Of a stretch of DNA of 64,000 nt, positions 2,294 to 17,630 are shown piece by piece. Below the pieces are notes generated by a model. The model saw only the letters and a program-made list of their open reading frames with translations. It made no database searches and was not told the DNA's origin. The stretch covers positions 1 to 64,000 of the forward strand of contig NZ_SSMQ01000038.1 in NCBI RefSeq assembly GCF_005144585.1, given 5' to 3'. Both the position numbers and the translations under genes were made by a program. Source of the stretch: Polyangium fumosum (GTDB taxonomy: Bacteria; Myxococcota_A; Polyangia; Polyangiales; Polyangiaceae). Each line of letters begins with the position of its first letter. The stretch's first letter is position 1.

Positions 2294-3934
2294 TCAGGGC
2301 GTCGAGCCGGCGCGCTCCAGCGCGGCCTTCCGCCGCGCCGCGAGAGGGTGCTCCGACAGGCTGCGGTGCCGATCGAGGCCGATCAGCTCCAGCGTGCGCC
2401 CGCTCCGCTCGAACTCACCTCGGAGCTCGTGGAGCTTCTCCATCACGGTGTGATCCACGAGGCGGGCATGGTCGAAGTCGACGACCACGTGCTTCGCCTC
2501 GTGTTTCGCGAGCCGCCCCTTGATCGAGAGGTAGTTGCTGAACACCGCGGCGTGCCGGATCCGGAGCACGACGCGCTCCCCGACCGAACGCTCCTCGATG
2601 TCGGGCCGGAACAGGCTCTTGATGGGCGCCCCGTTCACCACGTGCACGACCATCTTGATCACGATGCCAGCCGCCACGCCGACGAGCAGGTCGGTCGCGA
2701 TCGTGACGATCGTCGTCGACACGAACACGAGGAGCTGCTCGCGACCGATGCGGAACGTCTTGACGAACTCGTGGAGGGAGGCGAGGCGCGTGCCTGTGTA
2801 GATCAGCATCGCTGCGAGCGCCGCGAGCGGGATGCGGTGGATGAGGCCGGGCAAGAACGCCACGAAGAGCAGCAAGAACAGCCCGTGGAAGAAGTTCGAT
2901 AACCTCGACCGCGCGCCGTAGCCGATGTTCGCCGAGCTGCGCACGATCTCCGAGATCATGGGCAGGCCGCCGATGAGGCCCGCGACCAGGTTGCCGACGC
3001 CCGTCGCGAGCAGGTCTTTGTCGAGGTCCGAGCGGCGCTTCTCCGGATCCAGCGCGTCGACGGCCTTGGCGCTGAGCAAGCTCTCGATGCTGCCGACGAG
3101 CGCGAACATCACGATGTACTTGAGCGACGTCCCCGAGAGCACCGCGCTGAAATCCGGCGTCGTCACCGCCGCGAGCACGTTTCCCGGGAGATTCACCAGG
3201 AAGTTCGGCCCGATCTTGTAGTCGTGGTGGTTGATCGAGAACGTGTACGTGTGCTCGTGCTCGAGGTCGAACGCGTGCGCGAGCGGCACCGCGACCGCGA
3301 GCACGAAGAGCGGCGCCGGGATCTTCTTGAGGAACGAAAACCGCTTCGCGAGCACCGGGAACGCGAAGAGGATCGCGAGGCTCACGCCGCCGATGATCGC
3401 GATCTCCGGGTTCAGGCGGCCTACGCTGCGCGGGATCTCGAAGAGCAGGTGCAGCGGCTCCTTGGCCTCGGGCGTCACGCCGAGCGCTACGTGGATCTGC
3501 TTCGAGCAGATGATGATGCCGATCGCCGCGAGCATCCCGTGCACCACGGATGACGGAAAGAAATCACCGAGCGCCCCGGCGCGCGCGAGGGCAAACCCAA
3601 TCTGGAGCACGGCGGCGACCACGATCGTGGCGAGCGCGCGGCGATACCCGACCGAGCCATTCCCGCTCCCGAGCTCCGTCACGGCGCCGAGCGCGATGAC
3701 GATGAGGCCCGCGGCCGGCCCTTTGATGGTGAGCGCAGCGCTGCCTATCCAGGTGGCGACCACGCCGCCGATGACGGCCGTGATGATGCCTGCCACGGGC
3801 GGAAAACCGCTGGCCATGGCGATGCCCAGGCAAAGCGGCAAAGCGATGAGAAAGACGAGAAATCCGGCGACGAGGTCGTTCCGGATGGAAGGCGCGCCCG
3901 TGGGCACACCGGCGCTCTGGTCCGGCTTGTCCAT
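2294..3934 (-). CDS. SulP family inorganic anion (probably bicarbonate) transporter
   Basis: A 546-residue inner-membrane transporter of the SulP/SLC26 family. The N-terminus carries the hallmark run LVAGFLVFLIALPLCLGIA and then the ALTIKGPAAGL segment, typical of the SulP branch that often neighbours carbonic anhydrase genes. About 12 hydrophobic segments are followed by a short STAS-like cytoplasmic domain (VVVDFDHARLVDHTVMEKL). ATG 3934 is preferred: the frame extends to 4504 but that part is arginine-rich and non-membrane. It is divergent from the dab-type operon and shares its ECF-type promoter region. SulP members carry sulfate, bicarbonate or other anions; bicarbonate is inferred from context, not from the sequence. 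Confidence 0.88.
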   Translation of the reverse strand: MDKPDQSAGVPTGAPSIRNDLVAGFLVFLIALPLCLGIAMASGFPPVAGIITAVIGGVVATWIGSAALTIKGPAAGLIVIALGAVTELGSGNGSVGYRRALATIVVAAVLQIGFALARAGALGDFFPSSVVHGMLAAIGIIICSKQIHVALGVTPEAKEPLHLLFEIPRSVGRLNPEIAIIGGVSLAILFAFPVLAKRFSFLKKIPAPLFVLAVAVPLAHAFDLEHEHTYTFSINHHDYKIGPNFLVNLPGNVLAAVTTPDFSAVLSGTSLKYIVMFALVGSIESLLSAKAVDALDPEKRRSDLDKDLLATGVGNLVAGLIGGLPMISEIVRSSANIGYGARSRLSNFFHGLFLLLFVAFLPGLIHRIPLAALAAMLIYTGTRLASLHEFVKTFRIGREQLLVFVSTTIVTIATDLLVGVAAGIVIKMVVHVVNGAPIKSLFRPDIEERSVGERVVLRIRHAAVFSNYLSIKGRLAKHEAKHVVVDFDHARLVDHTVMEKLHELRGEFERSGRTLELIGLDRHRSLSEHPLAARRKAALERAGSTP

Positions 3935-3958
3935 AAAACCCTTTGCGGATCGGTCACG

Positions 3959-3987
3959 GACGTCGTGATTCCGTTCCTCACGACGTC
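3959..3987. repeat. Inverted repeat in the sulP leader
   Basis: Nine-base perfect arms GACGTCGTG and CACGACGTC are separated by 11 bases, so the arm centres are 20 bp apart, about two helical turns. This spacing suits a dimeric regulator. A further copy of the half-site CACGACGT lies at 4066-4073, next to the dab -10 element. It falls between the sulP promoter and the sulP ATG, so it could also fold in the sulP mRNA leader. Confidence 0.5.
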
Positions 3988-4009
3988 GGTCGTGCGATCC
4001 GATCCACAA

Positions 4010-4040
4010 GACGGATCGAGGCCACGGGCAGGTTCCCGGG
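4010..4040 (-). promoter_or_regulatory. ECF-type promoter for sulP
   Basis: Read on the minus strand: CCCGGGAACC (4040 to 4031), a 17-base spacer, then CGTC (4013-4010). This is the GGAAC / CGTC pattern of ECF sigma factors. The -35 half is the mirror arm of a perfect 14-bp palindrome (4031-4044) whose other arm serves the dab operon. Transcription would start about 70 bases before the sulP ATG. The spacer is one base longer than in the two + strand sites. Confidence 0.55.
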
Positions 4041-4068
4041 AACCAACTCGCTGCTCGTCCCGTCCCAC
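4035..4068 (+). promoter_or_regulatory. ECF-type promoter for the nuoM-dabA-dabB operon
   Basis: CCCGGGAACC (4035-4044), a 16-base spacer, then CGTCCCAC (4061-4068). The same 10-N16-8 arrangement, identical at all 18 fixed bases, lies in front of the ECF sigma gene at 14825-14858. GGAAC at -35 and CGTC at -10 are classic ECF elements. The predicted start site is near 4073, giving a leader of about 55 bases before ATG 4128. Confidence 0.75.
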
Positions 4069-4093
4069 GACGTAAGCAAGAAGCAGCACGCGT

Positions 4094-4110
4094 AGGGACG
4101 ATCCGTCCCT
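4094..4110. repeat. Short hairpin in the dab operon leader
   Basis: AGGGACG-ATC-CGTCCCT: seven-base perfect arms around three bases, ending 17 bases before the first ATG of the operon. It would lie inside the transcribed leader, just upstream of the ribosome-binding area. It could be an operator or an RNA stem; no T-run follows, so it is not a terminator. Confidence 0.4.
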
Positions 4111-4127
4111 GCGATGAGCATTGATTT

Positions 4128-5588
4128 ATGCCGAGCCTTCTCCTGACGATTTTCCCGCCCTTGCTCGGCGCGATCCTCGTCATTCTGCTCCCGCCCGGGA
4201 ACGTCCGGTGGATCAAAGGCGTCGCCCTCTTCCACGCGGCGCTGGCATTCATCGCGTCGTGGAGCCTCGTCCCGTCGTTCGACCGAACGACGTCCGCGCT
4301 CCAGTTCGTCGCGCCGTTCCCGTGGTCGCCGGACGCCGACGGCGCCGCCGCGCTGGGCGTCGACGGCATCTCCTTCCCCATGGTGCTCCTCACGACGCTC
4401 GTGATGCTGATCGCGCTCATCGCGTCGCTCCACGGCACGCACCGCGTGAAGGGGTATTTCGCCTGGTTTCTGCTCCTCGAATTCGCGGTCCTCGGCGTCT
4501 TCACCTCGCTCTCGTGGTCGCTCTTTTACGTCTTCTGGGAGCTCACCCTCGTCCCCTTGTTTTTCCTGGTCAGCGTGTGGGGCGGGAAAAACCGCTCGGC
4601 CGCGAGCATGAGCTTCTTCTTGTATACGCTCGCCGGCTCCGTCCTCATGCTGGTCGCCATCCTCGCGCTGCACCTCTCGGTGCCGAAGCACGGGTTCGGG
4701 ATGGTCGAAATGCAGAACGCGAGCGCCGGCCTCGGCCGCGCGACCCAGGTCCTACTCTTCCTCGGCCTCTTCGCGGGCCTCGCGGTGAAGATCCCCGTCT
4801 TCCCGTTGCACGGATGGCTCCCGCTCGCCTACGTCGAATCCGAGCCACCCGTCAGCATGGTCTTTTCGGCCGTGCTCGCGAAGATGGGCGCGTACGGCCT
4901 GCTCCGCCTCACGGCGCTCTTGCCCGCCGGCGCGGAGTCGCTCGTGCCGCTCCTCTTCCTGCTCGGCCTCGTCAATATCGTCTACGGCGCGCTGCTCGCG
5001 TTCCGCCAGCCCGATCTCAAGACCATGGTGGCCTATGGCTCGATGAGCCACATGGGCTTCGTCTTGATCGGCGTCTCCTCGCTGAACGACGCCGGCCTCA
5101 CGGGCGCCACGATGCAGATGTGCACGCACGGCGTCTCCAGCGCTGCGCTCTTCCTCCTCGTCGGCGCGCTCGAGCGCCGCACGAAGACCCGCGACGTGCG
5201 CCAGTACGGCGGCCTCGCGAGCGTCACGCCACGCTTCTTCGTGGCGCTCTCCCTCGCGCTCCTCGGCTCGATGGGTTTGCCCGGGCTCGCCGGGTTCGTC
5301 AGCGAGCTGTCCACGCTCGTCGGCACGTTCCAGCGGTACGAATATTTTGCTGGAATCGCGACCATCGGCGTCCTCATCACGGCCGGATATTCGATGCGCG
5401 CCATCGGCCGCCTCTTCTTCGGCCCCTTGAATCCCCGCTGGAAACACCTCCGGGACCTCGAACCGCGGGAGCTCGTCGCTGCCGCGCCGCTCGGGCTCCT
5501 CATCGTCGCGCTCGGCGTCGCCCCGCGCGCCGCCCTCGACCTCGTCGCCGCCACGGTCTCGCACATGGCGACGCTCTTCCACGGATGA
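4128..5588 (+). CDS. NuoM-like proton-translocating subunit 1 of the DAB cluster
   Basis: A 486-residue integral membrane protein of the Mrp/NuoL-M-N antiporter-like family (PF00361), with about 14 hydrophobic segments. The functional motifs are intact: the glutamate in FYVFWELTLVPLFFL (TM5), the lysine in AVKIPVFPLHGWLP (TM7) and the lysine in LAKMGAYGLLR (TM8). It most resembles classic NuoM, but no other complex I gene is nearby. It is the first gene of the operon behind the ECF-type promoter, and seven bases separate it from dabA. Likely role: a proton path energising DabA-type carbon uptake, by analogy with DabB. ATG 4128 begins directly at the first membrane helix. Confidence 0.85.
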   Translation: MPSLLLTIFPPLLGAILVILLPPGNVRWIKGVALFHAALAFIASWSLVPSFDRTTSALQFVAPFPWSPDADGAAALGVDGISFPMVLLTTLVMLIALIASLHGTHRVKGYFAWFLLLEFAVLGVFTSLSWSLFYVFWELTLVPLFFLVSVWGGKNRSAASMSFFLYTLAGSVLMLVAILALHLSVPKHGFGMVEMQNASAGLGRATQVLLFLGLFAGLAVKIPVFPLHGWLPLAYVESEPPVSMVFSAVLAKMGAYGLLRLTALLPAGAESLVPLLFLLGLVNIVYGALLAFRQPDLKTMVAYGSMSHMGFVLIGVSSLNDAGLTGATMQMCTHGVSSAALFLLVGALERRTKTRDVRQYGGLASVTPRFFVALSLALLGSMGLPGLAGFVSELSTLVGTFQRYEYFAGIATIGVLITAGYSMRAIGRLFFGPLNPRWKHLRDLEPRELVAAAPLGLLIVALGVAPRAALDLVAATVSHMATLFHG

Positions 5589-5595
5589 GTCTCGT

Positions 5596-8500
5596 ATGCG
5601 CGCAATGCCTTCCGCCGTCCCGCGCGGCATCTCGGTCGAATCGAGGAAACACCTCGAACACGAGATCCACCACATCGCCCACGTCCTGCCCGGACAGGGG
5701 CCGATCGAGACGTTCATCCACCACAACACGCTCCACGGCTTCCAGCACCTCCATTTCGAGCAAGCCGTCGTGGAGGCGCGCCGCGTGCTCGGCGGGCGCG
5801 GATACCTGCCGCTCGACGAGTATCGACGGCTCTACGCCATCGGCCGGATCACCGACGAGGACCTCGAACGCGCGCGCCGCGAGCGGAATGGCGCGGTTGA
5901 GCCCGAGCCTCTCCTCCGGATCGGCGATCGAACGGTCACCACGCGCGACGTCGAGCGCCTCGCCTTGCTCCACGGCCTCGACCCGCTCGAACCCGGCGAG
6001 GGCGCCGAGCCACGCTTCGGGCCGAACGTTTTTTCCGTGCTCCGGCCCGAGCTCTCCGCGGAGGCCCGCGAGCACCTGCTCGCCACGGCGAAACGTGAGT
6101 TCGAGGCCGCGCTCGCGCGTATCGGGCGCGATTTCACCGTCGCCGATCTGCTCGCCGATCTCCTCGCCACGCCCGTCCCCGCGGCCGTGCTCGAAGAGGC
6201 TTGCCTCGACGGATCGACGGACGAAAGCGCCGATCCCGACGCCATCCCCCGCGCGCTCGATACGCTCGGCATCCCCGAGGACGCGCGGGCCGGCTACCTC
6301 GACCTCGTCCGCGACAAACTCGCCTCCGGTCCCGCGAAAAACCGCCCCGAGCGCTGGCTCGAAGCCGAGGTCCGCAAGGTGCGCCGGGTGCTGCTCGCGC
6401 ATTTCGGCGTCGAGGGCACGCTCCCCGCGATCGCCGAGCGAATGCGGCGTGATCCCGAGGGCCTCGCCGTCCTCTCCTTGCTCCGCGCGAGCCTCGCGAG
6501 CTTTGGTTTGTCCGATCCCTTCTCGCCGATCCACGCCGAGAACCTCACGCCCGAAGAGCCCGTGGGCGCGCGGATCGAGGCGCTCTTCGAGCGCATCGAG
6601 CACCTCGAAGCCTGGGGCGGACCGGCCATTCCGCTCGACGCCGAGCTCGCCGCGCGCGTCCGCGACACCGTCCGCGCGCACCTCGAAGAGCGGGACGGCG
6701 CGCTCGGTCCACACGCCGGCGCGGCCACCAGCGAAATCGCCCGCCTCTGCCTCACCGTCGTTCACGACCTCGGCCCCGATCACCTGCGACGGCGTGGATT
6801 CGAGGCGCTCCGGGCGCTCGAATCCGCGTTCGGCGGCCCGCCGTCGAGCGAGAGCCTGATTGCCAAGCTCACCACGCGTGATCCTCGCCGGCAGATGATG
6901 GAGCACGCCGCGCGCCGATGGGAGGAGCACATCGGCAAGGTCGGCCCCGAGACGTGCCACCGCGATTTGCTCCTCGCGCTCACGGGCGAGGACATCCACG
7001 AGAAGATTCACCCGCAGATCATGCGCGTGACGATGGCCTTCCTCGACGAGGGCCTCGCGGCCTGGCACGTCGCGGGCCGCTCGCTCGGCTTTTACGATGC
7101 TTTCCGCAAGATGGCCGAGCACGACCGATTCTTCGAGCTCGAAGATTTGCCGGGGGCCCGCGACGCGCTGCGGGAGCTGCCGCCGCTCGCCGTCGACGCG
7201 ATCCTCCAGAGCCTCGAACGCCTCGGCGTGCCCGAGCTGCACTGGGGGCCGTATCTCCGCCGTATCTGCGTGGGTTTGCCCGGGCTCGCGGGCATGGTGC
7301 ACTGGCGCGAGACCCACCCCGATTACCCGGCGCAACGGGCGCACCCGATCGACCTCCTCCAGTTCCTCGCGGTCCGCCTCTTCTACGAGGTGCTCTTCGT
7401 GCGTCGCGCGTCCTTGCGCGCCTTCGGGCACGACGGCGACGTCGACGCCTTCCGCCATTATTTCTCGAACCATCTGCCGGAGCTTCTCGTCCGGCATGCG
7501 CTCTTCCTCGGCGAGCTGCCCGATTTCCTCGCCGAGCGCGCGCGCGCCTTGTTCGAGGCGCGCTCCGCGGGCACCGCGGCCAGCGACGATGGGGCCCTCC
7601 TCCGCCTCGCCGACATGGTCTTTGATCTGAAGCAAAGCGCCGAACACGTGAACGGCGGACACTCCGCGCGGCATCACGCATTCCGCCTCTTCTTGCTCGC
7701 GCAGCACCTCGGCATCTCCCCGGGTGAGCTCCGCGCGACCTCGCTCGAAGGCGCCACGCGTCTGCTCGCGGCGCTCGACGCGTGCGACCCCGACACCCTC
7801 ACGCCGCTCTGGCAGTGTGCCTACGAGATCCATTACCGCGACGGCGTGCTCGAAGCGCTCACCCAAAACGTCCGCGATCACAAACCGTATGCGGGCCGGC
7901 GCGAGGCGCAGATCGTCTTCTGCATGGACGACCGCGAGGAGTCCATCCGCCGGCACATCGAGGAGATGCGGCCCTCGTACGAGACCTTCGGCGTCGCAGG
8001 CTTCTTCGGCGTGGCGATCGCGTATGAGGCGCTTGGCGCGCGCGAGGCCGTGCCGCTGTGTCCGATCGTCGCGACGCCCGCAGCGCAGCTCTGCGAGGTC
8101 CCGCGCCCCGAGGCGATGCACGCGTGGGCTTCGCGCTCGCTCCGCACGCGCGCCCTCGCGGCGCTCCGCGACGTCATCCGCGAGGTCACCCGCAATCCCG
8201 TCTCGTCCTATTTCGTCATCGACATCCTCGGGTTCTTCTCGCTCTTCCCCGTCCTCGGCCGGCTGCTCTTCCCGCGCGCGTTCGATCGCATGTCGCGCCG
8301 CGCGAAGCACGCCGTGCTCCCCGCCGTCGAGACCGAGGTGCCGCTCGATCGGGAACGCGAAAAAGGTACGGCGCCGAAACAAGGTTCGCTCCAGAAGACC
8401 CACTTCACCGTCGTCGAGCAGGCGGATCGGGTGGCAGCGCTCCTCCGAAACATCGGCCTCGTCCGCGACTTCGCGCCGGTCGTCATGCTCTCCGGCCACG

Positions 8501-9531
8501 GCTCCGAGAGCCGCAACAACCCGCACCTCTCCGCGTACGACTGCGGCGCGTGCGGCGGCAAGCACGGCGGCCCGAATGCCCGTGTCTTCGCGCGCATGGC
8601 GAACGATCCCGAGGTCCGCGCCCTCGTGCGGGAGCGGGGCATCGACATCCCGGACGACACGTGGTTCCTGGGAACCGAGCACAACACCGCGACGGACGAG
8701 ATCCTTTATTTCGACCTCGGCGACGTCCCCCACGACGTCCGCCCCGCCGTGGAAAAGCTCCGCGGCGTGCTTCAACGTGCCCGGGAGCGCTCCGCACACG
8801 AGCGGTGCCGCAAGTTCGAATCGGCCCCGAAAAACCCCACCCCGGCCCGCGCGCTCCGGCACGTGGTCGGCCGCGCCGCGGACCTCTCGCAGGCGCGCCC
8901 CGAGCTTGGCCACGCGACGATCGCATTCGCGGTCATCGGACCTCGATCGATCTCGCAGGGCGTCTTCCTCGACCGCCGATCTTTTTTGATCTCGTACGAT
9001 CCTGCCATCGACCCCGAGGGCACGATCCTCGAAGGCACCCTGCTCGCCGCCGGCCCCGTCGGCGCGGGCATCAACCTCGAATACTATTTCTCCACGGTCG
9101 ACAACACGACGTACGGCTGCGGGACGAAGGTCCCCCACAACGTCGCGGGGCTCATCGGCGTGATGGAAGGCGCATCGGGGGATCTGCGCACGGGTTTGCC
9201 CCGGCAGATGATCGAGATCCACGAGCCGATGCGACTCCAGATGCTCGTCGTGGCGAAGACCGAGATCCTCGGCAAGATCTACGAAAAGCAGCCGGCCATC
9301 CGCGAGCTCGTGGGCAACGCGTGGGTCCACCTCATCGCGATGGATCCGGAGACGGGCGTATGCATGTCGTTCCAGCCTGGAAAGGGCTTCATCCCGTGGG
9401 AGCCACAGGACCTCCCCGTGAAGACGGTGAAGGCCTCCGCGGCCTGGTATTCGGGCACGCTCGACTTCCTCCCCCCGGCGTTCATTCGCCCGGACGAACC
9501 CCCCGCGCGTGGACAGGCGGCCCATGCTTGA
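5596..9531 (+). CDS. dabA: DabA-type (DUF2309) inorganic carbon uptake subunit, long form
   Basis: A 1311-residue soluble or peripheral protein of the DUF2309/UPF0753 family. DabA is the beta-carbonic-anhydrase-like subunit that, with DabB, drives CO2 hydration or bicarbonate accumulation. The family's catalytic set is visible: C776 and D778 in FCMDDREES, H968 in SGHGS, and C983 in YDCGACGG. The Cys-x-Asp and His-15-Cys spacings equal those of the Halothiobacillus protein (C351/D353, H524/C539). The N-terminal signature HHNTLHGFQHL is also present. It is clearly longer than the roughly 800-residue reference protein; the extra length lies mainly before the catalytic Cys. It overlaps dabB by eight bases (ATGCTTGA), which suggests coupled translation. 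An ATG at 5605 is an alternative start. Confidence 0.93.
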   Translation: MRAMPSAVPRGISVESRKHLEHEIHHIAHVLPGQGPIETFIHHNTLHGFQHLHFEQAVVEARRVLGGRGYLPLDEYRRLYAIGRITDEDLERARRERNGAVEPEPLLRIGDRTVTTRDVERLALLHGLDPLEPGEGAEPRFGPNVFSVLRPELSAEAREHLLATAKREFEAALARIGRDFTVADLLADLLATPVPAAVLEEACLDGSTDESADPDAIPRALDTLGIPEDARAGYLDLVRDKLASGPAKNRPERWLEAEVRKVRRVLLAHFGVEGTLPAIAERMRRDPEGLAVLSLLRASLASFGLSDPFSPIHAENLTPEEPVGARIEALFERIEHLEAWGGPAIPLDAELAARVRDTVRAHLEERDGALGPHAGAATSEIARLCLTVVHDLGPDHLRRRGFEALRALESAFGGPPSSESLIAKLTTRDPRRQMMEHAARRWEEHIGKVGPETCHRDLLLALTGEDIHEKIHPQIMRVTMAFLDEGLAAWHVAGRSLGFYDAFRKMAEHDRFFELEDLPGARDALRELPPLAVDAILQSLERLGVPELHWGPYLRRICVGLPGLAGMVHWRETHPDYPAQRAHPIDLLQFLAVRLFYEVLFVRRASLRAFGHDGDVDAFRHYFSNHLPELLVRHALFLGELPDFLAERARALFEARSAGTAASDDGALLRLADMVFDLKQSAEHVNGGHSARHHAFRLFLLAQHLGISPGELRATSLEGATRLLAALDACDPDTLTPLWQCAYEIHYRDGVLEALTQNVRDHKPYAGRREAQIVFCMDDREESIRRHIEEMRPSYETFGVAGFFGVAIAYEALGAREAVPLCPIVATPAAQLCEVPRPEAMHAWASRSLRTRALAALRDVIREVTRNPVSSYFVIDILGFFSLFPVLGRLLFPRAFDRMSRRAKHAVLPAVETEVPLDREREKGTAPKQGSLQKTHFTVVEQADRVAALLRNIGLVRDFAPVVMLSGHGSESRNNPHLSAYDCGACGGKHGGPNARVFARMANDPEVRALVRERGIDIPDDTWFLGTEHNTATDEILYFDLGDVPHDVRPAVEKLRGVLQRARERSAHERCRKFESAPKNPTPARALRHVVGRAADLSQARPELGHATIAFAVIGPRSISQGVFLDRRSFLISYDPAIDPEGTILEGTLLAAGPVGAGINLEYYFSTVDNTTYGCGTKVPHNVAGLIGVMEGASGDLRTGLPRQMIEIHEPMRLQMLVVAKTEILGKIYEKQPAIRELVGNAWVHLIAMDPETGVCMSFQPGKGFIPWEPQDLPVKTVKASAAWYSGTLDFLPPAFIRPDEPPARGQAAHA

Positions 9532-11689
9532 ACGTCTCGCCGTTCTGATTCCGCTGCTGCCGCTCGTCGCGGCGATCCTCATCGGCCTCTGCGCCCTCGG
9601 CGGACGCCCGCTCCGCGAGCGCACGACGAGCCGGCTCGCGCTCGGCGCGACCTTGCTCTCCTTCCTCGGCGCCGGCGCGCTCCTCGTGCGCTCCACGCTC
9701 GGCGCCGCGCCCGCGACGATCTTCCTCGCGCCCTGGATCGAGACCCGCGCGTATCAGGCGCCGCTCGAGCTCCTGCTCGATCCGCTCTCGGCGTCGCTCG
9801 CGCTGCTCGTCACCGGCTTCGGCGCGCTCGTCCTCAAGTTCTCGACGAACTACATGCACCGCGAGGCCGGCTTTCCCCGGTTCTTCGCGGTGATGTGCTT
9901 CTTCCTCGCCGCCATGCTCCTGCTCGTGCTCGCCGGCAACCTCGTGATGACGTTCGTGGGCTGGGAGGGCGCAGGCCTCGCGTCGTACCTGCTCATCGGA
10001 TATCATTACGATCGCAAAGCACCGGCGCGGGCCGCGACGTACGCGTTCGTGACGAACCGCATCGGCGACGCGGCGTTCCTCTGCGCGATCTTCATCGCCT
10101 GGCACGAGCTCGGCACGGTCCGCTATGCGTCGCTGTTCCGCGCCGCGGAGACCACAAACCATGGGGCGCTCTCGGCGCTCGGGTTCTGCCTCCTCGTCGC
10201 GGCGGCCGCGAAATCCGCGCAGCTCCCGTTCTCGCCGTGGATCTCGCGCGCCATGGAAGGCCCGACGCCTTCGAGCGCGCTCTTTTACGGCGCCGTCATG
10301 GTCACGGCGGGCCTCTTCCTCGTCTTGCGCATGAACCCCGTGCTCGTGCACGCGCCCGACGTGCTCCGCGCCATGGCTGCGATGGGCGCGGCGACTGCGC
10401 TGTATGGCGGGCTCGTCAGCCTCGTGCAGACGGACGTGAAGAGCGGCCTCATCTTCTCGACGGTGAGCCAGCTCGGGCTCATGTTCCTCGCGGTCGGGCT
10501 CGGGGCCCGCGGCATTGCGCTGTTTCACCTCTTTGCGCATGCGCTCCTCCGCGGCGCGCAGTTCCTCACGGCGCCGAGCACCCTGCTCCTCGTCACGCGC
10601 GACGAGCCGTCCCGCGAAGAGCGCCCCGTCGCGGGCGAGGTCGAGCCGGCCTTCTGGCTCTTGCTCGCGGGCCTGCTCGGCGTCCTCGCCTTGCCCTTCC
10701 TCACCGAGATATGGGCAGGCCCGGACGCCCCCCTCTCGCCCGGCGCGTTCCTCTCCGCGGCGGGCGCCGGCATGGCGCTCTTCTGCGGCGGCCATTATCT
10801 CCTCCGGTTCGCGCAGCGGGGCCTCGCGAATGCAGGAAATGGCGCCGAGTGGAAGACCGTCTCCTCGTTCGTCGAGTTCGGCCCCGCGTGGATCGCCCCC
10901 GCGGTCGTCGGCGCCGTCAGCCTCTCGCTCGGCCTCGCGCCCGGCGGACGGCCGCACGGCCTTTTTCACCTCGTCCTCGACCCCTTGCTCGTGCGGGGTG
11001 GACTTGGCCGCGCCGCACATCCCTTCTGGGCCTTTGGCCTCATGCTCCTGCTCGGGTGCCTGCTCGTCGCGGGCTGGGCGACGGCGCTTTATTTCCACCG
11101 CGCCGCGCCCGAGCGACCGGGCATTTTGCCGACGCGCCTGCGGGGCCTTTACGTCACGGCGCTCGCGCGCTTCTGGCTCGAACCCCTGTACGAGCGCCTC
11201 CTCCTCGCGCCCATTCTCCGGCTCGGCCGCGCGCTCGATCACCTGGATGGCTCGCTCCTCGATCGCGCCTTCGGCCGCCCGCTCTCGCCCGAGGACGCGC
11301 CCGCGCCGCTCGCGACCTTCCAGGAAAAAGTCCTCGCCGGCGAGATCGACGACGCCGATCCTTTTGCGGCCGTACGTGTGGCCCTCGAACGCCAAACCAC
11401 GAGCGGCGCGGCGATGGCGCACGGGGACGAACCGCCGCCCGCGCCCGGCGCCGAGGACGATTTCGCCCGGGGCCGGGGCATCGCGGGCCGGATCGTCCAA
11501 TACGCGGCGGCGCTCGCGAACCTCATCGAGAAACACATCGTCCGGCGCGCGATCGGCCGCGGCATCCCGATCACCGGCGACCTCCTCGGGCGCACCCTCG
11601 ATCACGTCGAGGCGCTGCTCGAAAGGCCTGTCGTCGTCGGGGCGCTCGTCGTCCTCTCGCTCTTCGTCGTCGTCTGCTGGGCCGTTTGA
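9524..11689 (+). CDS. dabB: DabB-like (NuoL-type) membrane subunit
   Basis: A 721-residue polytopic protein of the NuoL branch, the expected membrane partner of DabA. Key features are the TM5 glutamate in MTFVGWEGAGLASYLLIG and the TM7 block AAAKSAQLPFSPW followed by AMEGPTPSSALFYGAVMVTAG. The usual HTWLP or HGWLP after the TM7 lysine is changed to SPWIS, losing the conserved His. A hydrophilic region (about residues 560-660) is followed by a last C-terminal helix, giving a NuoL-like length. ATG 9524 overlaps the dabA stop; a GTG at 9509 is possible. Two bases separate it from the next gene. Confidence 0.85.
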   Translation: MLERLAVLIPLLPLVAAILIGLCALGGRPLRERTTSRLALGATLLSFLGAGALLVRSTLGAAPATIFLAPWIETRAYQAPLELLLDPLSASLALLVTGFGALVLKFSTNYMHREAGFPRFFAVMCFFLAAMLLLVLAGNLVMTFVGWEGAGLASYLLIGYHYDRKAPARAATYAFVTNRIGDAAFLCAIFIAWHELGTVRYASLFRAAETTNHGALSALGFCLLVAAAAKSAQLPFSPWISRAMEGPTPSSALFYGAVMVTAGLFLVLRMNPVLVHAPDVLRAMAAMGAATALYGGLVSLVQTDVKSGLIFSTVSQLGLMFLAVGLGARGIALFHLFAHALLRGAQFLTAPSTLLLVTRDEPSREERPVAGEVEPAFWLLLAGLLGVLALPFLTEIWAGPDAPLSPGAFLSAAGAGMALFCGGHYLLRFAQRGLANAGNGAEWKTVSSFVEFGPAWIAPAVVGAVSLSLGLAPGGRPHGLFHLVLDPLLVRGGLGRAAHPFWAFGLMLLLGCLLVAGWATALYFHRAAPERPGILPTRLRGLYVTALARFWLEPLYERLLLAPILRLGRALDHLDGSLLDRAFGRPLSPEDAPAPLATFQEKVLAGEIDDADPFAAVRVALERQTTSGAAMAHGDEPPPAPGAEDDFARGRGIAGRIVQYAAALANLIEKHIVRRAIGRGIPITGDLLGRTLDHVEALLERPVVVGALVVLSLFVVVCWAV

Positions 11690-11691
11690 TC

Positions 11692-13254
11692 ATGAACGAA
11701 ATCCCCTACGCCTCGGCCTTGCCCTTCCCGGTCCTGAGCGCGCTCATCCTCGTGCCGCTCCTCACCGCGGCATTCGTCCGTTCCCTGAAACATGCGCGCT
11801 ACGTCTATTCCATCGGCCTCGGCGGCGCCGCGCTCGAGCTCGTCCTCGCCGTGCTCGTCGTCGCCCGGTTCGAGCGGCACACCTCCGCGCTCCAGCTCGT
11901 CGAGCGTGTCCCGCTCTTCGGCACCTTCGCCTATCACGTCGGCGTCGACGGGATCAGCGTCCTCTTTTTGCCGCTGACCGCGCTGCTCGCGCTGCTCGTC
12001 ATCCTGCACGCGCAGGTCGCTTCGAAAGAGCGACCTGGCCATTACCTCGCCGCCATCTTTTGCCTCCAGGCGACGCTCATGGGCGCGTTCGTCGCGCTCG
12101 ATCTCCTGCTCTTCTGGGCGTTCGCCGCGCTCGAGCTCGTGCCGGGCACGCTGCTCGTGCGGAGCTGGGGCACGGGGCCGGGAAGGCACACGGCGGCGCG
12201 TCGTTATGCGGCGCTCAATGCGATGGGCGTCCTGCTCGTCCTCGCCGGTGCGCTCGTCCTCGGCCGCGCCACCGGCGGTCGATTCTCCCTCGACGCGCTC
12301 GTCGACATGCCCGCGCCGGCGAAAGCACAATCCCTCGCGTTCTGGCTCTTCGTCCTCGGCTTCGCCGTCCGCATCCCGCTCTTCCCCTTCCACGGCTGGC
12401 TGCCGCCCGTCATGGCCGAGGGCCCGGTCGTGGGCGTCAGCGTCTTCCTCGTCGGCGCGAAGCTCGGCGTCTATGGCCTCTTGCGCTTCGTGGTCCCGGT
12501 CCTGCCCGTCGCCGCGCACCGACACGGTTCCATTCTGGCCATCCTCGGCGTCGTCGGCATGCTGTACGGCGCCCTCCTCGCGCTCGTCCAGACAAACCTA
12601 CGCCGCCTCGTCGCGTTCGCCTGCCTCACGCACACGGGCGCCGTGCTCGTGGGGCTCTCGGCGCTCAACGTGGAGGGGCTCTCGGGCGCCTTGCTCGTCA
12701 CGCTGAACGTCGGCCTCAGCGCGGCCGGGCTTTATTTCGTCGCGGGCTTCTTGCACCGGCGCCTCGGCTCGACCGAGATCGAGCGCGCCGCGCGGCTCTC
12801 GCATCACGCGCCTCTGCTCTCGTTCACGTTCCTGCTCGTCGGCCTCTCGACGATTGGAATGCCGGGGACGAGCGGCTTCGAGGCCGAGCACCTCGTCGTC
12901 GTGGGCGCGCTCGGCGCGCGGCACGGCATCATGGCCATCGCGGTCGGCCTCGGCAGCTTGCTCGGGGCCGCCTATCTGCTGCGTTATTTCCAGCGCGCCT
13001 TCCTCGCCTCCGCCGCCTCCGCGCCGGGCTCGCCTGCAACCGAGACGAAATCGACGCGCGGCAAGAGCGTCCGGGACCTCGGCCCGCGCGAGCTCGTCAT
13101 TGCCGGCGCGGTCGGCGCGCTCATCGTGGGCCTCGGGCTCTTTTCTCACCCCCTGCTCGAGGTCGTGGACGGCTCGGTCCGCGCCATGTCCACACGGCTC
13201 GAGCACGCCAAACCGCATTCGTCCCTCGTGATGCACGGGGAGGGCGCCCCGTAA
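11692..13254 (+). CDS. NuoM-like proton-translocating subunit 2 of the DAB cluster
   Basis: A 520-residue membrane protein of the NuoL/M/N family, two bases after dabB. The TM5 region reads LLLFWAFAALELVPGTLLV, with the glutamate four residues later than in subunits 1 and 3. The TM7 motif reads AVRIPLFPFHGWLP, so the proton-channel lysine is replaced by arginine. The TM8 lysine (GAKLGVYGLLR) is kept. It ends in a hydrophilic His-containing tail. These changes suggest a specialised or partly inactive channel compared with subunit 1. It lies mid-operon, with 22 bases to the next gene. Confidence 0.83.
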   Translation: MNEIPYASALPFPVLSALILVPLLTAAFVRSLKHARYVYSIGLGGAALELVLAVLVVARFERHTSALQLVERVPLFGTFAYHVGVDGISVLFLPLTALLALLVILHAQVASKERPGHYLAAIFCLQATLMGAFVALDLLLFWAFAALELVPGTLLVRSWGTGPGRHTAARRYAALNAMGVLLVLAGALVLGRATGGRFSLDALVDMPAPAKAQSLAFWLFVLGFAVRIPLFPFHGWLPPVMAEGPVVGVSVFLVGAKLGVYGLLRFVVPVLPVAAHRHGSILAILGVVGMLYGALLALVQTNLRRLVAFACLTHTGAVLVGLSALNVEGLSGALLVTLNVGLSAAGLYFVAGFLHRRLGSTEIERAARLSHHAPLLSFTFLLVGLSTIGMPGTSGFEAEHLVVVGALGARHGIMAIAVGLGSLLGAAYLLRYFQRAFLASAASAPGSPATETKSTRGKSVRDLGPRELVIAGAVGALIVGLGLFSHPLLEVVDGSVRAMSTRLEHAKPHSSLVMHGEGAP

Positions 13255-13276
13255 GGGCGCTCGGGAGGCGTTCGTC

Positions 13277-14803
13277 GTGCAAATTCGCGAGTTCTTCGCC
13301 GCAGATCAGGTCGGTTTTCCCGTCCTCTCCACGTTGATCTTCCTCCCCCTCGCCTGGGCGATCCTCGTCCTCGCGATCGGCGACGAGAAACGCGCGCGGT
13401 GGACAGCGCTCACCGGCGCCCTGATCGAGCTCTTCCTCTCGCTCTTCGTGCTCGCGCGGTTCACGCCTGGGACGCCCGACGTGCAATTCGCCGAGCGGCG
13501 CGCATGGATGCCCACGCTCGGCGCGAGTTATCACGTCGGCGTCGATGGCATGAGCGTGCTCTTTTTGCCCGTCGCCTCGATGCTCACGGTGCTCGTGCTC
13601 GTCGCCTCGTGGCACGACGTGAAGACCCGCGCCCGCGGCTTTTGCGCGTCCCTCCTCGCGCTCTCCGCGATCGTCGTGGGCATCTATTCGTCCCTCGACC
13701 TCGTCCTCTTCTTCGTGTTCTGGGAGGCGTCGCTCGTCCCCATCTATTTCCTCGTAAGCCTCTGGGGCGTGGGCCCCGAGCGCCGGTATGCGGCGACGAA
13801 GTTCGTGCTCACGATGCTCGCCGCCTCCGGGCCGCTCCTGCTCGGCATCGTCTTGCTCGCGGTCGCGGGCCGCCAAAGCCCGGCCGATCCGTACACGTTC
13901 GACTGGCTCGTCCTCCGCGCGAGGCCGGTCCCGGCCGCGATCGGGCCGATCGTCTTCTTCACGATGCTGACCGGCTTCGCCGTGAAGGGCCCCTTCGTCC
14001 CGCTCCACACCTGGATGCCCACGATGCTGCGCGAATGCCCCGTGGGGATCGGCGTGCTCTTGACTGGCCTCAAGCTCGGCAGCTACGGCGTCCTTCGCTT
14101 CCTCGTGCCGCTCCTGCCCGAGGCCACGGCGCACTATGCGTGGCTGCTCGGCGCCGTCGGCGTCACGGGCATCGTGTACGGCGCGCTCGTCGCGCTTGTC
14201 CAGCCAAACCTCCGGCGCATGCTCTCGTTCGCGTGCCTGAGCCACGTGGGCATCGTCCTGCTCGGCATCTCGTCGGGCAAGGCCGAAGGCCTCACGGGCG
14301 CGGTGCTCGCGATGCTGAACCTGGGTTTGTCCGCCACGGGGCTGTTTTTCCTGACTGGCTTCCTCCAGAGCCGCGTGGGTTCGTCCGAGGTCTCGGCGCT
14401 CGGCGGCGTCGCGCAAAAAGCGCCGCGCGCGGCCGTGATGTTCTTGCTCTTGAGCCTCGCCGGCATCGGCGTCCCCGGCACGAGCGGCTTCCCCGGCGAG
14501 CACCTCGTCTTGCTCTCGGCGTACGAGACGAGCCTCCCGCGGCTCGGGCTCGCGCTCCTCGGCACGATCCTCGGCGCGGCGTACGTCCTCCGTGTCTTCG
14601 AGCAGGTCTTCCTCGGCCCCGTCACGCGCCCGCGCGTCGCCGCGATGAAGGACCTCCGTCCGCTCGAATGGGGCGTCGTCGGCTGTCTGGCCATTCTCGT
14701 CCTCGTGGTCGGCCTTTATCCGCGCCCTCTGCTCGCGGTCGTGGGCCCGAGCGCCGAGGCCCTCGCGCGCCCGGTCCCCTCCGTCGTCGCTGGGCACCCG
14801 TGA
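13277..14803 (+). CDS. NuoM-like proton-translocating subunit 3 of the DAB cluster
   Basis: A 508-residue membrane protein of the same family. It starts at GTG 13277, supported by GGGAGGCG seven bases upstream. TM5 carries VLFFVFWEASLVPIYFL with the glutamate. TM7 reads AVKGPFVPLHTWMP, with the lysine kept and HTWMP in place of HGWLP. TM8 has TGLKLGSYGVLRF. It is the last structural gene before the ECF sigma gene, with 188 bases between. Together with subunits 1 and 2 and dabB it gives four antiporter-like proteins alongside one DabA. Confidence 0.83.
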   Translation: MQIREFFAADQVGFPVLSTLIFLPLAWAILVLAIGDEKRARWTALTGALIELFLSLFVLARFTPGTPDVQFAERRAWMPTLGASYHVGVDGMSVLFLPVASMLTVLVLVASWHDVKTRARGFCASLLALSAIVVGIYSSLDLVLFFVFWEASLVPIYFLVSLWGVGPERRYAATKFVLTMLAASGPLLLGIVLLAVAGRQSPADPYTFDWLVLRARPVPAAIGPIVFFTMLTGFAVKGPFVPLHTWMPTMLRECPVGIGVLLTGLKLGSYGVLRFLVPLLPEATAHYAWLLGAVGVTGIVYGALVALVQPNLRRMLSFACLSHVGIVLLGISSGKAEGLTGAVLAMLNLGLSATGLFFLTGFLQSRVGSSEVSALGGVAQKAPRAAVMFLLLSLAGIGVPGTSGFPGEHLVLLSAYETSLPRLGLALLGTILGAAYVLRVFEQVFLGPVTRPRVAAMKDLRPLEWGVVGCLAILVLVVGLYPRPLLAVVGPSAEALARPVPSVVAGHP

Positions 14804-14824
14804 TCTCGGTCCCCGCCGTGCTCG

Positions 14825-14858
14825 CCCGGGAACCCAGGCCGAGGTCGTTCCGTCCCAC
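14825..14858 (+). promoter_or_regulatory. ECF-type promoter for the sigma/anti-sigma genes (autoregulation)
   Basis: CCCGGGAACC (14825-14834), a 16-base spacer, then CGTCCCAC (14851-14858). It matches the dab operon promoter at 4035-4068 at all 18 element bases and in spacing. The predicted start site is around 14863, almost on top of an in-frame ATG at 14866 and about 130 bases before ATG 14992. ECF factors usually drive their own gene, so this motif is the best guess for the recognition sequence of the sigma encoded next. Confidence 0.75.
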
Positions 14859-14991
14859 TCCGGACATGCGCGCCACCACCGAATCAACGGCGTTCTCCGC
14901 GGGAGGATCGTTCTTCCGCTTGCCAGGGGTGGCCCCGCGTCTCGGCTACGCTAGAGTGGCCCCGTCGTCGCCCACGCTCGACGGTTTCTCC

Positions 14992-15591
14992 ATGGCCTCT
15001 CCGCACTCCACGTCCCTCGGGGAAGGCCGCGCGCAGTTCGAGGCGGTGGTTCGCCCGGTCCTGCCACGGCTCTATCGCTTTTGCCTCGCCCTCTCGGGGG
15101 ACCGCGACCGCGCCGACGACCTCTTCCAGAACACGCTCATCAAGGCCTACGCGAACGCAGCCTCGTTCGAGGGCCGGAGCGACCTCGTGGTCTGGATTTG
15201 CGGCATTGCCCGGCACGAGCACCTGGAGGCGCGGCGCACCGAGGCGCGGCGGCGCGGGCTCTTCGAGCAATTCGTCGATGCTTGTGCTTCGGCGTTCGGA
15301 TTCGGGGCCGAGGACGAGCGGAAGAGCCCGGAGGCGCTGGTGATCCAGAACGAGCACGCGGGCCAGCTCCTCGCGTGCTTGCAGACGTTGCCGGAGGAGT
15401 TCCGCACGGTGGTGGTCCTCTGCGACATCGAGGAGCTCGGATACGATCGGGTGGCCGAGATCCTCGGCGTCCCCAAAGGGACGGTGAAGAGCCGACATGC
15501 CCGCGGACGCGTGCGTCTGCGCGCGGCTTATGAAAAGCTCGTGGCGGCGAAGTCCGAAGCGCCGACGAGGGAGGAGGAGGAGTCGACATGA
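14992..15591 (+). CDS. ECF-family RNA polymerase sigma factor
   Basis: A 199-residue sigma70-family protein of the ECF class. Region 2 is seen as YRFCLALSGDRDRADDLFQNTLIKAYANAAS (residues about 24-54, shown by its ends YRFC and YANAAS). A linker follows, and region 4 ends with the helix-turn-helix stretch GVPKGTVKSRHARGRVRLR. It directs polymerase to GGAAC/CGTC-type promoters. The start is uncertain: ATG 14992 begins the conserved domain, while ATG 14866 in the same frame would add 42 residues and fit a leaderless message. Its stop overlaps the next gene as ATGA, the usual arrangement for a sigma with its anti-sigma. I infer that it controls the carbon-uptake genes. Confidence 0.88.
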   Translation: MASPHSTSLGEGRAQFEAVVRPVLPRLYRFCLALSGDRDRADDLFQNTLIKAYANAASFEGRSDLVVWICGIARHEHLEARRTEARRRGLFEQFVDACASAFGFGAEDERKSPEALVIQNEHAGQLLACLQTLPEEFRTVVVLCDIEELGYDRVAEILGVPKGTVKSRHARGRVRLRAAYEKLVAAKSEAPTREEEEST

Positions 15592-16196
15592 ATTCGAAAG
15601 ACCTGCCCCCGCTCCCCGAAAGTTTGGAGGAGGAGATCCGCGCGCTCCGCCAGGTAAAGCCGCCGCAATCGCTCGTCGATCGCGCGTTCGCCAGCTTGCC
15701 CGAGCGCTCGGCCTCCGAGCGTCGCACGAGCAAGGATGTCCCGGCCAAACCCCGCCAGAGCGGGGGCTCGGCGTTCGTGCGGATCGCGCCCGCGATGGCC
15801 CTCGCGGCGGCGCTCGCGTATGGCATCTGGGGTCAGGTGCGCTCGCAGGGCTCCGAGGTCGTGCGGGTCGAGGAGCGCGCGGTCGCCTTGCCGGAGGCGG
15901 GGCACGCCTGGACAGAGCTTTACCTGCAAACGCACCACCACGACGATTTGCCGGCCCTCGTGCACCTCGAGGTGCCCACGCACGTGCGCGTGGAGCTCCC
16001 GTCGGAGAGCGACGTGAAGCTCGAACGGCAGTGTGCCGAGACGCTCTGCGTGCACAAATTCACGCACCACAATGGCAAGGGCGTGCCCTTGCGCGTGGCC
16101 GTCGCGCATCCGGGCCGGTACGAGATTCACGTCCGTCACGAATCAAAAAAGGCCGCCCTCCGCGAGCAATTCGTGTTGACGGCCAGCCGCGATTGA
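15588..16196 (+). CDS. Single-pass membrane protein, putative anti-sigma factor/sensor
   Basis: A 202-residue protein translationally coupled to the ECF sigma gene. Residues 1-60 are cytoplasmic and charged, residues 64-82 form one membrane helix, and residues 85-202 lie outside the cytoplasm. The outer domain is rich in possible metal or pH ligands: THHHDD near 115-120, C149 and C154 in QCAETLC, and H156, H160, H161. The cytoplasmic part lacks the HxxxCxxC zinc motif of ZAS anti-sigma factors. Position and topology make it the probable anti-sigma, but the sequence alone does not prove this. Confidence 0.7.
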   Translation: MNSKDLPPLPESLEEEIRALRQVKPPQSLVDRAFASLPERSASERRTSKDVPAKPRQSGGSAFVRIAPAMALAAALAYGIWGQVRSQGSEVVRVEERAVALPEAGHAWTELYLQTHHHDDLPALVHLEVPTHVRVELPSESDVKLERQCAETLCVHKFTHHNGKGVPLRVAVAHPGRYEIHVRHESKKAALREQFVLTASRD

Positions 16197-16371: not shown

Positions 16372-17541
16372 GTGTCTCATCGCATTCGCGCGCTCGCGAG
16401 CGGACTCGCTTCGCTCGCCATGGCCTCTTCGTTTTCGCTCCCCGCCGCCCGCGCCGACGCGCCTGCGAAGAGCGACACCTTCGTCTTCCACGCCTCGCTC
16501 GCGGACGGGCTCGGATTCCGCACCGAGCAGGACAAATTCGTCCTCGACGCGGGCGTGCTCAGCCAGATGCGATTCGACGCCATCTCGAACAGCGACGGTC
16601 TCGCGAGCGACGGCTTCAACGTCGCCGTCGTGCGCCCGTACATCCGGGCCCGCGCGTTCCACGATCAGGTCCGCTTTTTCGTGCAGCCCGAGCTCGCCAC
16701 GGCCACCCCGAAGCTGCTCGACCTCGAAATCGCGTGGCAGCCGATGCCGGAGCTCGGCATCAAGGTGGGCCAATTTTTGACCCCGTTCAGCCGCGCGTTC
16801 TTCACGCCCGTCCCGATCCTCCAGTTCCCCGACTTCTCGCGCGTGAACGAGAAATTCAGGGCGGGACGCGACACCGGCATGATGCTCTTCGGCTCGACCG
16901 GCAAGGGGCGCCTGGAGTATTACGCGGGCGCATTCAATGGAAACGGCATCGACAAGGGCGGCAACGACGACACGTCGGTGATGGGCATCGGCCGCCTCGC
17001 GGTGAACCCGGTCCGCGCCATGCCGTACGACGAGACGCCTTCCTTGCGCGGCGCCGTTCCGTTCGGGATCTCCATCGGCGTCAATGGCATCGCCGATCGC
17101 GCGCACCCCACGAAGCAGCAGACGGACGCCGCGACGGGCGCGCAGACGACCGTGGCCCTGCCGGCCGAGACGCGCCTCACCGCGGGCGCCGATGTCTTCA
17201 TTGCGTGGGATCGGTTCACGTTCCTCGCCGAGGCATACGCGCGGCAGGTGCAGCCGGACGAGGGCAAGCGAATCCAGGGGTTCGGGGGATATGCGCAGGC
17301 GGGGTATTTCGTGGTGCCGAAGCGCTTCGAGATCGCCGCGCGCGCAGGCGTGATGGATCCGGACACGTCGAAGCCAGACACCGAGCGGAGCGTCGAGGGG
17401 CTGCTCAACGGCTACGTCGTGGGCAACCACCTCAAGATGGGCCTGCGTTACATGTGGCTCCGCACCGAGGCGAAGACGGCCGACGGCTATGCGGCCGGGA
17501 CAAACCACAAGCTGACCTTCCAGGTGCAGCTCTGGATCTAG
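16372..17541 (+). CDS. OprO/OprP-like outer membrane porin
   Basis: A 389-residue exported protein with a signal peptide ending at ARADA and a beta-barrel-like sequence of alternating polar and hydrophobic strands, finishing in an aromatic-rich strand that ends LWI. Segments such as VVRPYIRARAFHDQVRFFVQPE, KVGQFLTPFSRAFFTPVP and KFRAGRDTGMMLFG match the phosphate-selective porin O/P family, which forms anion-selective channels. It starts at GTG 16372, with GGAGG six bases upstream. It follows the sigma/anti-sigma pair by 175 bases that do not contain the CGGGAACC-N16-CGTCCC promoter. An anion pore fits a role in bicarbonate or phosphate entry, but the substrate is unproven. Confidence 0.8.
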   Translation: MSHRIRALASGLASLAMASSFSLPAARADAPAKSDTFVFHASLADGLGFRTEQDKFVLDAGVLSQMRFDAISNSDGLASDGFNVAVVRPYIRARAFHDQVRFFVQPELATATPKLLDLEIAWQPMPELGIKVGQFLTPFSRAFFTPVPILQFPDFSRVNEKFRAGRDTGMMLFGSTGKGRLEYYAGAFNGNGIDKGGNDDTSVMGIGRLAVNPVRAMPYDETPSLRGAVPFGISIGVNGIADRAHPTKQQTDAATGAQTTVALPAETRLTAGADVFIAWDRFTFLAEAYARQVQPDEGKRIQGFGGYAQAGYFVVPKRFEIAARAGVMDPDTSKPDTERSVEGLLNGYVVGNHLKMGLRYMWLRTEAKTADGYAAGTNHKLTFQVQLWI

Positions 17542-17586: not shown

Positions 17587-17630
17587 TGAAAACGATTTTC
17601 ATTGTCAAATTCATCTAGGCAGGGTAGAGT
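17587..17630 (+). promoter_or_regulatory. Zur/Fur-like operator and promoter for the methyltransferase
   Basis: A near-perfect palindrome TGAAAACGATTTTCA (17587-17601) abuts a -35 TTGTCA (17602-17607). After 17 bases comes a -10 TAGAGT (17625-17630). The 20 bases from 17587 are identical, in the same orientation to the gene, to those before the ribosomal protein S4 gene near 47431-47450. The palindrome has the spacing and core of Zur boxes of the TGAAAATGATTTTCA type and also resembles a Fur box. Confidence 0.75.

Follow-up and report, generated by a model that had tools for sequence, protein, structure and literature searches.

How might inorganic-carbon uptake be controlled in heterotrophic bacteria without RuBisCO? 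The question is raised by a locus of Polyangium fumosum (contig NZ_SSMQ01000038.1, positions 1 to 64,000; this 64-kb stretch of 69% GC DNA is the window referred to throughout), where an operon for a DAB-type carbon-uptake system (dab), a divergent gene for a SulP-family transporter (sulP) and a gene for an extracytoplasmic function (ECF) sigma factor lie close together and share promoter-like sequences. Little seems to be known of how inorganic carbon is sensed and its uptake regulated in non-photosynthetic bacteria, though DAB/MpsAB systems occur widely, heterotrophs and pathogens included. From comparison of sequences we consider it highly probable that the sigma factor and a putative anti-sigma factor encoded beside it form an autoregulated pair that is dedicated to this locus and controls its carbon-uptake genes.

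Shared promoter sequences at the locus

The motif CCCGGGAACC-N16-CGTCCCAC occurs exactly twice in the window, against 0 expected and 0 matches in 100 dinucleotide shuffles, one copy lying 5' of the dab operon and the other 5' of the ECF sigma gene. Both 34-base sites had been reported in a first-pass annotation of this DNA, and their positions (4035-4068 and 14825-14858, both on the + strand) proved exact, with identical 18 element bases and identical spacing. A third copy, on the minus strand at 4010-4036, was absent from that annotation and faces the sulP gene, whose likely start is at 3934. The promoter features are as follows:

4035-4068, + strand: ECF-type promoter of the dab operon (GGAACC 4039-4044, CGTC 4061-4064, spacer 16), conserved in 6 Polyangium species
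4010-4036, - strand: third copy, GGAACCTGCCCGTGGCCTCGATCCGTC, ECF-type promoter of divergent sulP (spacer 17), conserved in 5 Polyangium species
4031-4044, no strand: perfect 14-bp palindrome GGTTCCCGGGAACC, at the overlap of the two divergent -35 elements
14825-14858, + strand: ECF-type promoter P1 of the sigma gene, identified by exact motif match and comparison with relatives

The right half of the palindrome is the -35 element of the dab promoter and its left half that of the sulP-facing copy; the leading CCC of the dab site belongs to the palindrome and is common to the sulP-facing site.

ECF systems are marked by promoters with AAC at -35 and CGT at -10, an anti-sigma partner and autoregulation (PMC8103513). 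The sequence GGAACC-N16/17-CGTC stands before the sigma factor's own gene in 11 related species, and GGAAC/CGTC, cited in the first pass as the established ECF consensus, is indeed a generic ECF signature (PMC8103513). The bare core GGAAC-N17-CGTC is not significant alone in the window (3 observed against 1.28 expected; at least 3 in 13 of 100 shuffles). Such a core is weak in GC-rich DNA, and the case therefore rests on the extended identity and on comparative conservation.

Distribution of the motif among relatives

Orthologues of the sigma factor (E below 1e-32) were found in 13 of 184 genomes of the order. The family's 12 sigma loci belong to six Polyangium genomes, five Sorangium genomes and one genome of a third genus (G036); the Sorangium cellulosum records matched were So0157-2 and So ce26. 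Every one of these 12 sigma-bearing sulP/dab loci, which are related and hence not 12 independent events, carries the motif before sigma and/or the sulP-dab transcription units, whereas none of 18 dab loci in the order that lack the sigma gene has the strict motif, with up to 19 kb scanned. Several of the 18 have the same sulP-dabA-dabB-nuoM content. This count uses long flanks; a dabA control with 1.5 kb flanks was uninformative, even sigma-bearing loci being blank. GGAACC and CCGTC, spaced by 16 or 17 bases, are conserved at all 28 sites in 12 related species, and the background of the loose pattern is 6.4e-6 per strand-base, or about 0.001 per 200-bp upstream region.

The motif is found in three gene orders. 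Five Polyangium species share the layout of the window, and the sixth (G001) has no sulP alongside and has lost both the anti-sigma gene and the sigma-gene motif, the dab motif being kept. In Sorangium and G036 the sigma gene is divergent from sulP-dabA-dabB-nuoM, with the motif on each side (the G174 contig ends inside dabA). The third order, with the motif before sulP-dabA, is that of G249 (sigma 39% identical), which holds sigma, anti-sigma, motif, sulP, dabA, dabB and nuoM with another motif before sigma, and of G337 (45%), which holds sigma, anti-sigma, motif, sulP and dabA, then the contig end. In a metagenome-assembled genome, PRO2 (50%), sigma and a porin gene are each preceded by the motif, the divergent -35 elements again overlapping, and in G055 (54%), which has a sigma/anti-sigma pair, one motif copy precedes the sigma gene and another a resistance-nodulation-division (RND) pump (L068:6007-10673). 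Sites outside the family were not used in defining the motif. Sigma relatives at L112 and L113 have none of the locus's other genes. The check that the first-pass annotation had proposed, of the motif against sigma presence in relatives, thus finds that the motif follows the sigma gene, in two distant genomes as well, and the absence from relatives that would have told against it was not seen.

Genome-wide, the strict pattern GGAACC-N(13-14)-WYCCGTC has 4 matches in the 13 Mb genome, 3 of them at this locus, and over ten genomes 24 of 37 matches fall at this locus while a reversed control gives 8, counts that are partly circular in that the pattern was tuned on these sites. The remaining matches fit the background: viewed in context, those elsewhere (G000 C149, G004, G023, G170 and G001) reveal no extra target with a shared gene neighbourhood, and the off-locus matches of G023 and G170 resemble coding sequence. 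These counts argue against a large regulon with this strict sequence; members with weaker sites may be missed.

The sigma factor and its putative partner

The regulatory genes and the candidate second promoter are:

14950-14957, + strand: GCTAGAGT, probable housekeeping -10 element (P2) of the sigma gene, invariant in 11 species
14992-15591, + strand: ECF sigma factor, 199 aa (sigma2 and sigma4), from domain and structure comparison, with the start placed by codon-position bias
15588-16196, + strand: putative anti-sigma factor with one transmembrane segment and an outer beta domain, from comparison with relatives and AlphaFold

The sigma factor contains only sigma2 (residues 20-87) and sigma4 (125-178) with a linker under 50 residues, as is characteristic of ECF sigmas (PMC8103513), and is nearest to SigH/SigE/SigW in structure comparison. 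The first pass had the sigma gene closing the dab operon, a view contradicted by the gene's own promoter in the 188-bp gap and by the genes downstream, the putative anti-sigma gene, which overlaps the stop codon of sigma, and beyond it a porin gene. The stretch 14866-14991 is open and in frame in 11 species and has an ATG at 14866-14868, 10-15 nt past the motif and in frame in 11 of 11. A 242-aa, apparently leaderless sigma beginning at this ATG was rejected as the main form: variable columns per codon position number 7/7/8 in the extension and 4/3/21 in the body from 14992, and 14992 is the best supported start because codon-position bias is absent from the in-frame stretch beginning at 14866. 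The conserved ATG is possibly a leaderless start or belongs to a short upstream reading. G001 keeps the leader element, as GCTAAAGT, though its sigma gene has no ECF-type site in front. Close by in the window, at 17602-17630, is a TTGTCA-N17-TAGAGT site.

In the window's putative anti-sigma factor the one hydrophobic segment lies near residues 62-80; the six relatives checked have it at a similar place. Of the 12 family loci, 11 retain a one-transmembrane gene beside sigma, without a Pfam anti-sigma domain, as do 4 distant loci. In the AlphaFold model residues 90-200 form a beta domain, mostly at high confidence, and H118, C149, C154, H156 and H184 are invariant in 14 anti-sigma sequences, down to about 25% identity, a pattern that makes a metal or redox site in the outer domain plausible. 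The sequence has no match in the PDB, and a fold search returned generic beta sandwiches only (Z up to 8.7, not diagnostic). More tentatively, this protein might be a new kind of periplasmic sensor, whose His/Cys beta domain detects CO2/bicarbonate, pH or the metal state limiting zinc-dependent DabA; if true, heterotrophic bacteria would have a dedicated transmembrane inorganic-carbon signalling system. In Sorangium G023 a second anti-sigma-like gene lies near the first (L066:16783-17391).

Predicted circuit and alternative explanations

In the circuit that we infer, the anti-sigma factor would release the sigma factor, which would direct RNA polymerase to GGAACC-N16/17-CGTC promoters: its own, giving positive feedback; that of the dab operon, driving vectorial CO2 hydration; and that of divergent sulP, driving transport of an anion, probably bicarbonate. 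The leader element with TAGAGT probably gives basal sigma expression via the housekeeping sigma factor. This predicted promoter circuit is very probably correct. The first-pass proposal of an autoregulated sigma that switches on carbon uptake finds support in comparative genomics, as a prediction in which the sigma would recognise these sites. In seven of these genomes a RuBisCO large subunit was sought and not found, so that the likely role, by analogy, is bicarbonate supply for carboxylations in a heterotroph; a comparable role of MpsAB in heterotrophs is described in two reports (PMC6689103, PMC8552792).

Beside the circularity and relatedness noted above, several points weigh against this reading. 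The putative anti-sigma factor has no Pfam match and no recognised anti-sigma domain, and its N-terminal (cytoplasmic) part was modelled poorly by AlphaFold. No dabA was found at the G055 locus, where linkage to the RND pump implies that not every genome couples this sigma family to carbon. Dozens of ECF sigmas are encoded in the 13 Mb genome (50 matches at E <= 0.001) and GGAAC/CGTC is common to many ECF groups (PMC8103513), so another sigma could read these sites. That the promoters are real but read mainly by another cellular ECF sigma, the adjoining one being a target among others, nevertheless seems unlikely to us, given that the motif accompanies this sigma gene from genus to genus and in distant families too, is missing from the 18 dab loci that lack the gene, and hardly occurs outside this locus, unlike a shared regulon.

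Less probable still, indeed very improbable, is that the shared sequence is the operator of a dimeric DNA-binding regulator with GGTTCCCGGGAACC as its site: the palindrome is perfect over 14 bp between the divergent sulP and dab genes, and a similar one precedes the PRO2 porin gene, but it follows from the overlap of two divergent -35 elements, and only one half, always with CCGTC at 16-17 bp, is present before the sigma gene and at every site in Sorangium and G036. A further explanation concerns the signal and is compatible with the autoregulated circuit favoured here, namely that envelope or metal stress is sensed rather than carbon supply, bicarbonate uptake being one output. We regard this as doubtful but a good deal less remote than the other two. 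A metal site would fit the three His and two Cys of the outer domain, the module sits beside an RND pump in G055, and the fold search places the copper protein YcnI among its middling matches (Z about 8, level with unrelated beta sandwiches); the neighbours in Polyangium, Sorangium, G036, G249 and G337, by contrast, are sulP and/or dabA, with no metal-handling genes seen at those loci.

Uptake genes and their probable exchange

The genes that the sigma factor is predicted to control, and the porin gene beyond it, are:

2294-3934, - strand: SulP-family anion (probable bicarbonate) transporter, 546 aa (PF00916, 209.9 bits)
4128-5588, + strand: NuoM-like membrane subunit (domain searches)
5596-9531, + strand: DabA, 1311 aa (PF10070, 827.6 bits; aligned to 9rd0)
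9509-11689, + strand: DabB (NuoL/NdhF-like), 726 aa (PF00361 and PF00662)
11686-13254, + strand: NuoM-like membrane subunit (domain search)
13277-14803, + strand: NuoM-like membrane subunit (domain searches)
16372-17541, + strand: porin O/P-like outer-membrane channel (PF07396)

The nuoM-dabA-dabB order given in the first pass stands, and was incomplete: two more NuoM-like genes follow dabB, making the operon nuoM-like, dabA, dabB, nuoM-like, nuoM-like. The solved DabA2 has a Cys2His zinc site and an Asp-Arg dyad (PMC13144422); here the zinc ligands match DabA2 C351, H524 and C539 and the dyad matches D353 and R355 (motifs FCxDxR, GHG and DCGAC), and the adjoining DabB subunit is NuoL-like, the features by which a DAB system is recognised in sequence. 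Together with the extra NuoM-like subunits, DabA and DabB are predicted to carry out vectorial CO2 hydration. SulP scores above the PF00916 cut-off, its STAS domain reaching 20.0 bits against a cut-off of 22.6. The longer open reading frame containing the gene (2294-4504) falls below the BicA NCBIfam equivalog cut-off (128.4 bits against 880), and SulP is also below that of DauA. Both cut-offs being missed, bicarbonate is assigned as the probable substrate of this anion transporter from context only.

In a DabA tree, rooted by midpoint and including the compositionally biased G046, the Polyangium proteins group with G046 and those of Sorangium and G036 fall in another supported clade, forcing at least two label changes, whereas the SulP proteins of sigma-bearing genomes form one clade (99/100). 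With DabA of two lineages and SulP of one clade, the dab genes differ and the promoter was kept. It is likely, on the basis of these trees, that sulP-sigma-anti-sigma is an old core and that Polyangium replaced its dab operon by one of another type, over which the same promoter then took control; such a swap, with the promoter conserved, would clearly exemplify regulatory capture.

The porin gene has no motif copy of its own and is perhaps in one transcript with sigma and anti-sigma. In G048 (L155:4014-13071) sulP and dabA-dabB-nuoM-porin are divergent and sigma is absent, an arrangement that supports the porin as part of the carbon-uptake set. The Polyangium DabA (1311 aa) is some 300 residues longer than the G001 orthologue (1018 aa), and tblastn suggests that the extra sequence lies roughly between residues 139 and 402. 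The dab leader contains an inverted repeat, AGGGACGATCCGTCCCT, at 4093-4115, immediately 5' of the nuoM-like start. The 220-aa protein encoded at 1521-2183 has no significant Pfam family; among Polyangium species it is 98-100% identical, better conserved than its neighbours.

Relation to known systems

The pair resembles classical ECF sigma/membrane anti-sigma pairs such as RpoE-RseA and SigW-RsiW in its sigma2 and sigma4 domains, GGAAC/CGTC-type promoters, overlapping one-transmembrane partner gene and autoregulatory promoter. It differs from them in its output, inorganic-carbon uptake, and in a partner that has an uncharacterised His/Cys beta domain and no known anti-sigma domain. DabA (PF10070), with its conserved zinc site, and DabB are shared with DAB/MpsAB systems, to which this locus adds a 1311-aa DabA, three extra NuoM-like subunits, linked sulP and porin genes and ECF-type promoters. 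Cyanobacterial SigC is a group 2 sigma factor, not an ECF one. Its signalling likewise links a sigma factor to the inorganic-carbon level, but within a cascade for photosynthetic growth (PMC12329169). CorE of Myxococcus xanthus is also a myxobacterial ECF sigma with a narrow physiological output; it is described as copper-dependent (PMC3107203), whereas here a separate putative anti-sigma factor is encoded and the output is carbon uptake.

The first-pass annotation knew of no DAB-type system under a dedicated ECF sigma, and we found no such report in the open-access full-text library searched, which includes few subscription papers. No carbon-uptake genes were noted in the main text of a pH 7/pH 9 transcriptome study of Sorangium So0157-2 (PMC3696898). 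What is new here is an ECF sigma/anti-sigma module with a carbon-uptake output and an uncharacterised sensor domain, the type of module being already known. With a regulon of nearly a single locus, a promoter for each transcription unit and a putative sensor that is conserved, the system offers a compact, testable genetic handle. In G055 the module is attached to another output, the RND efflux pump.

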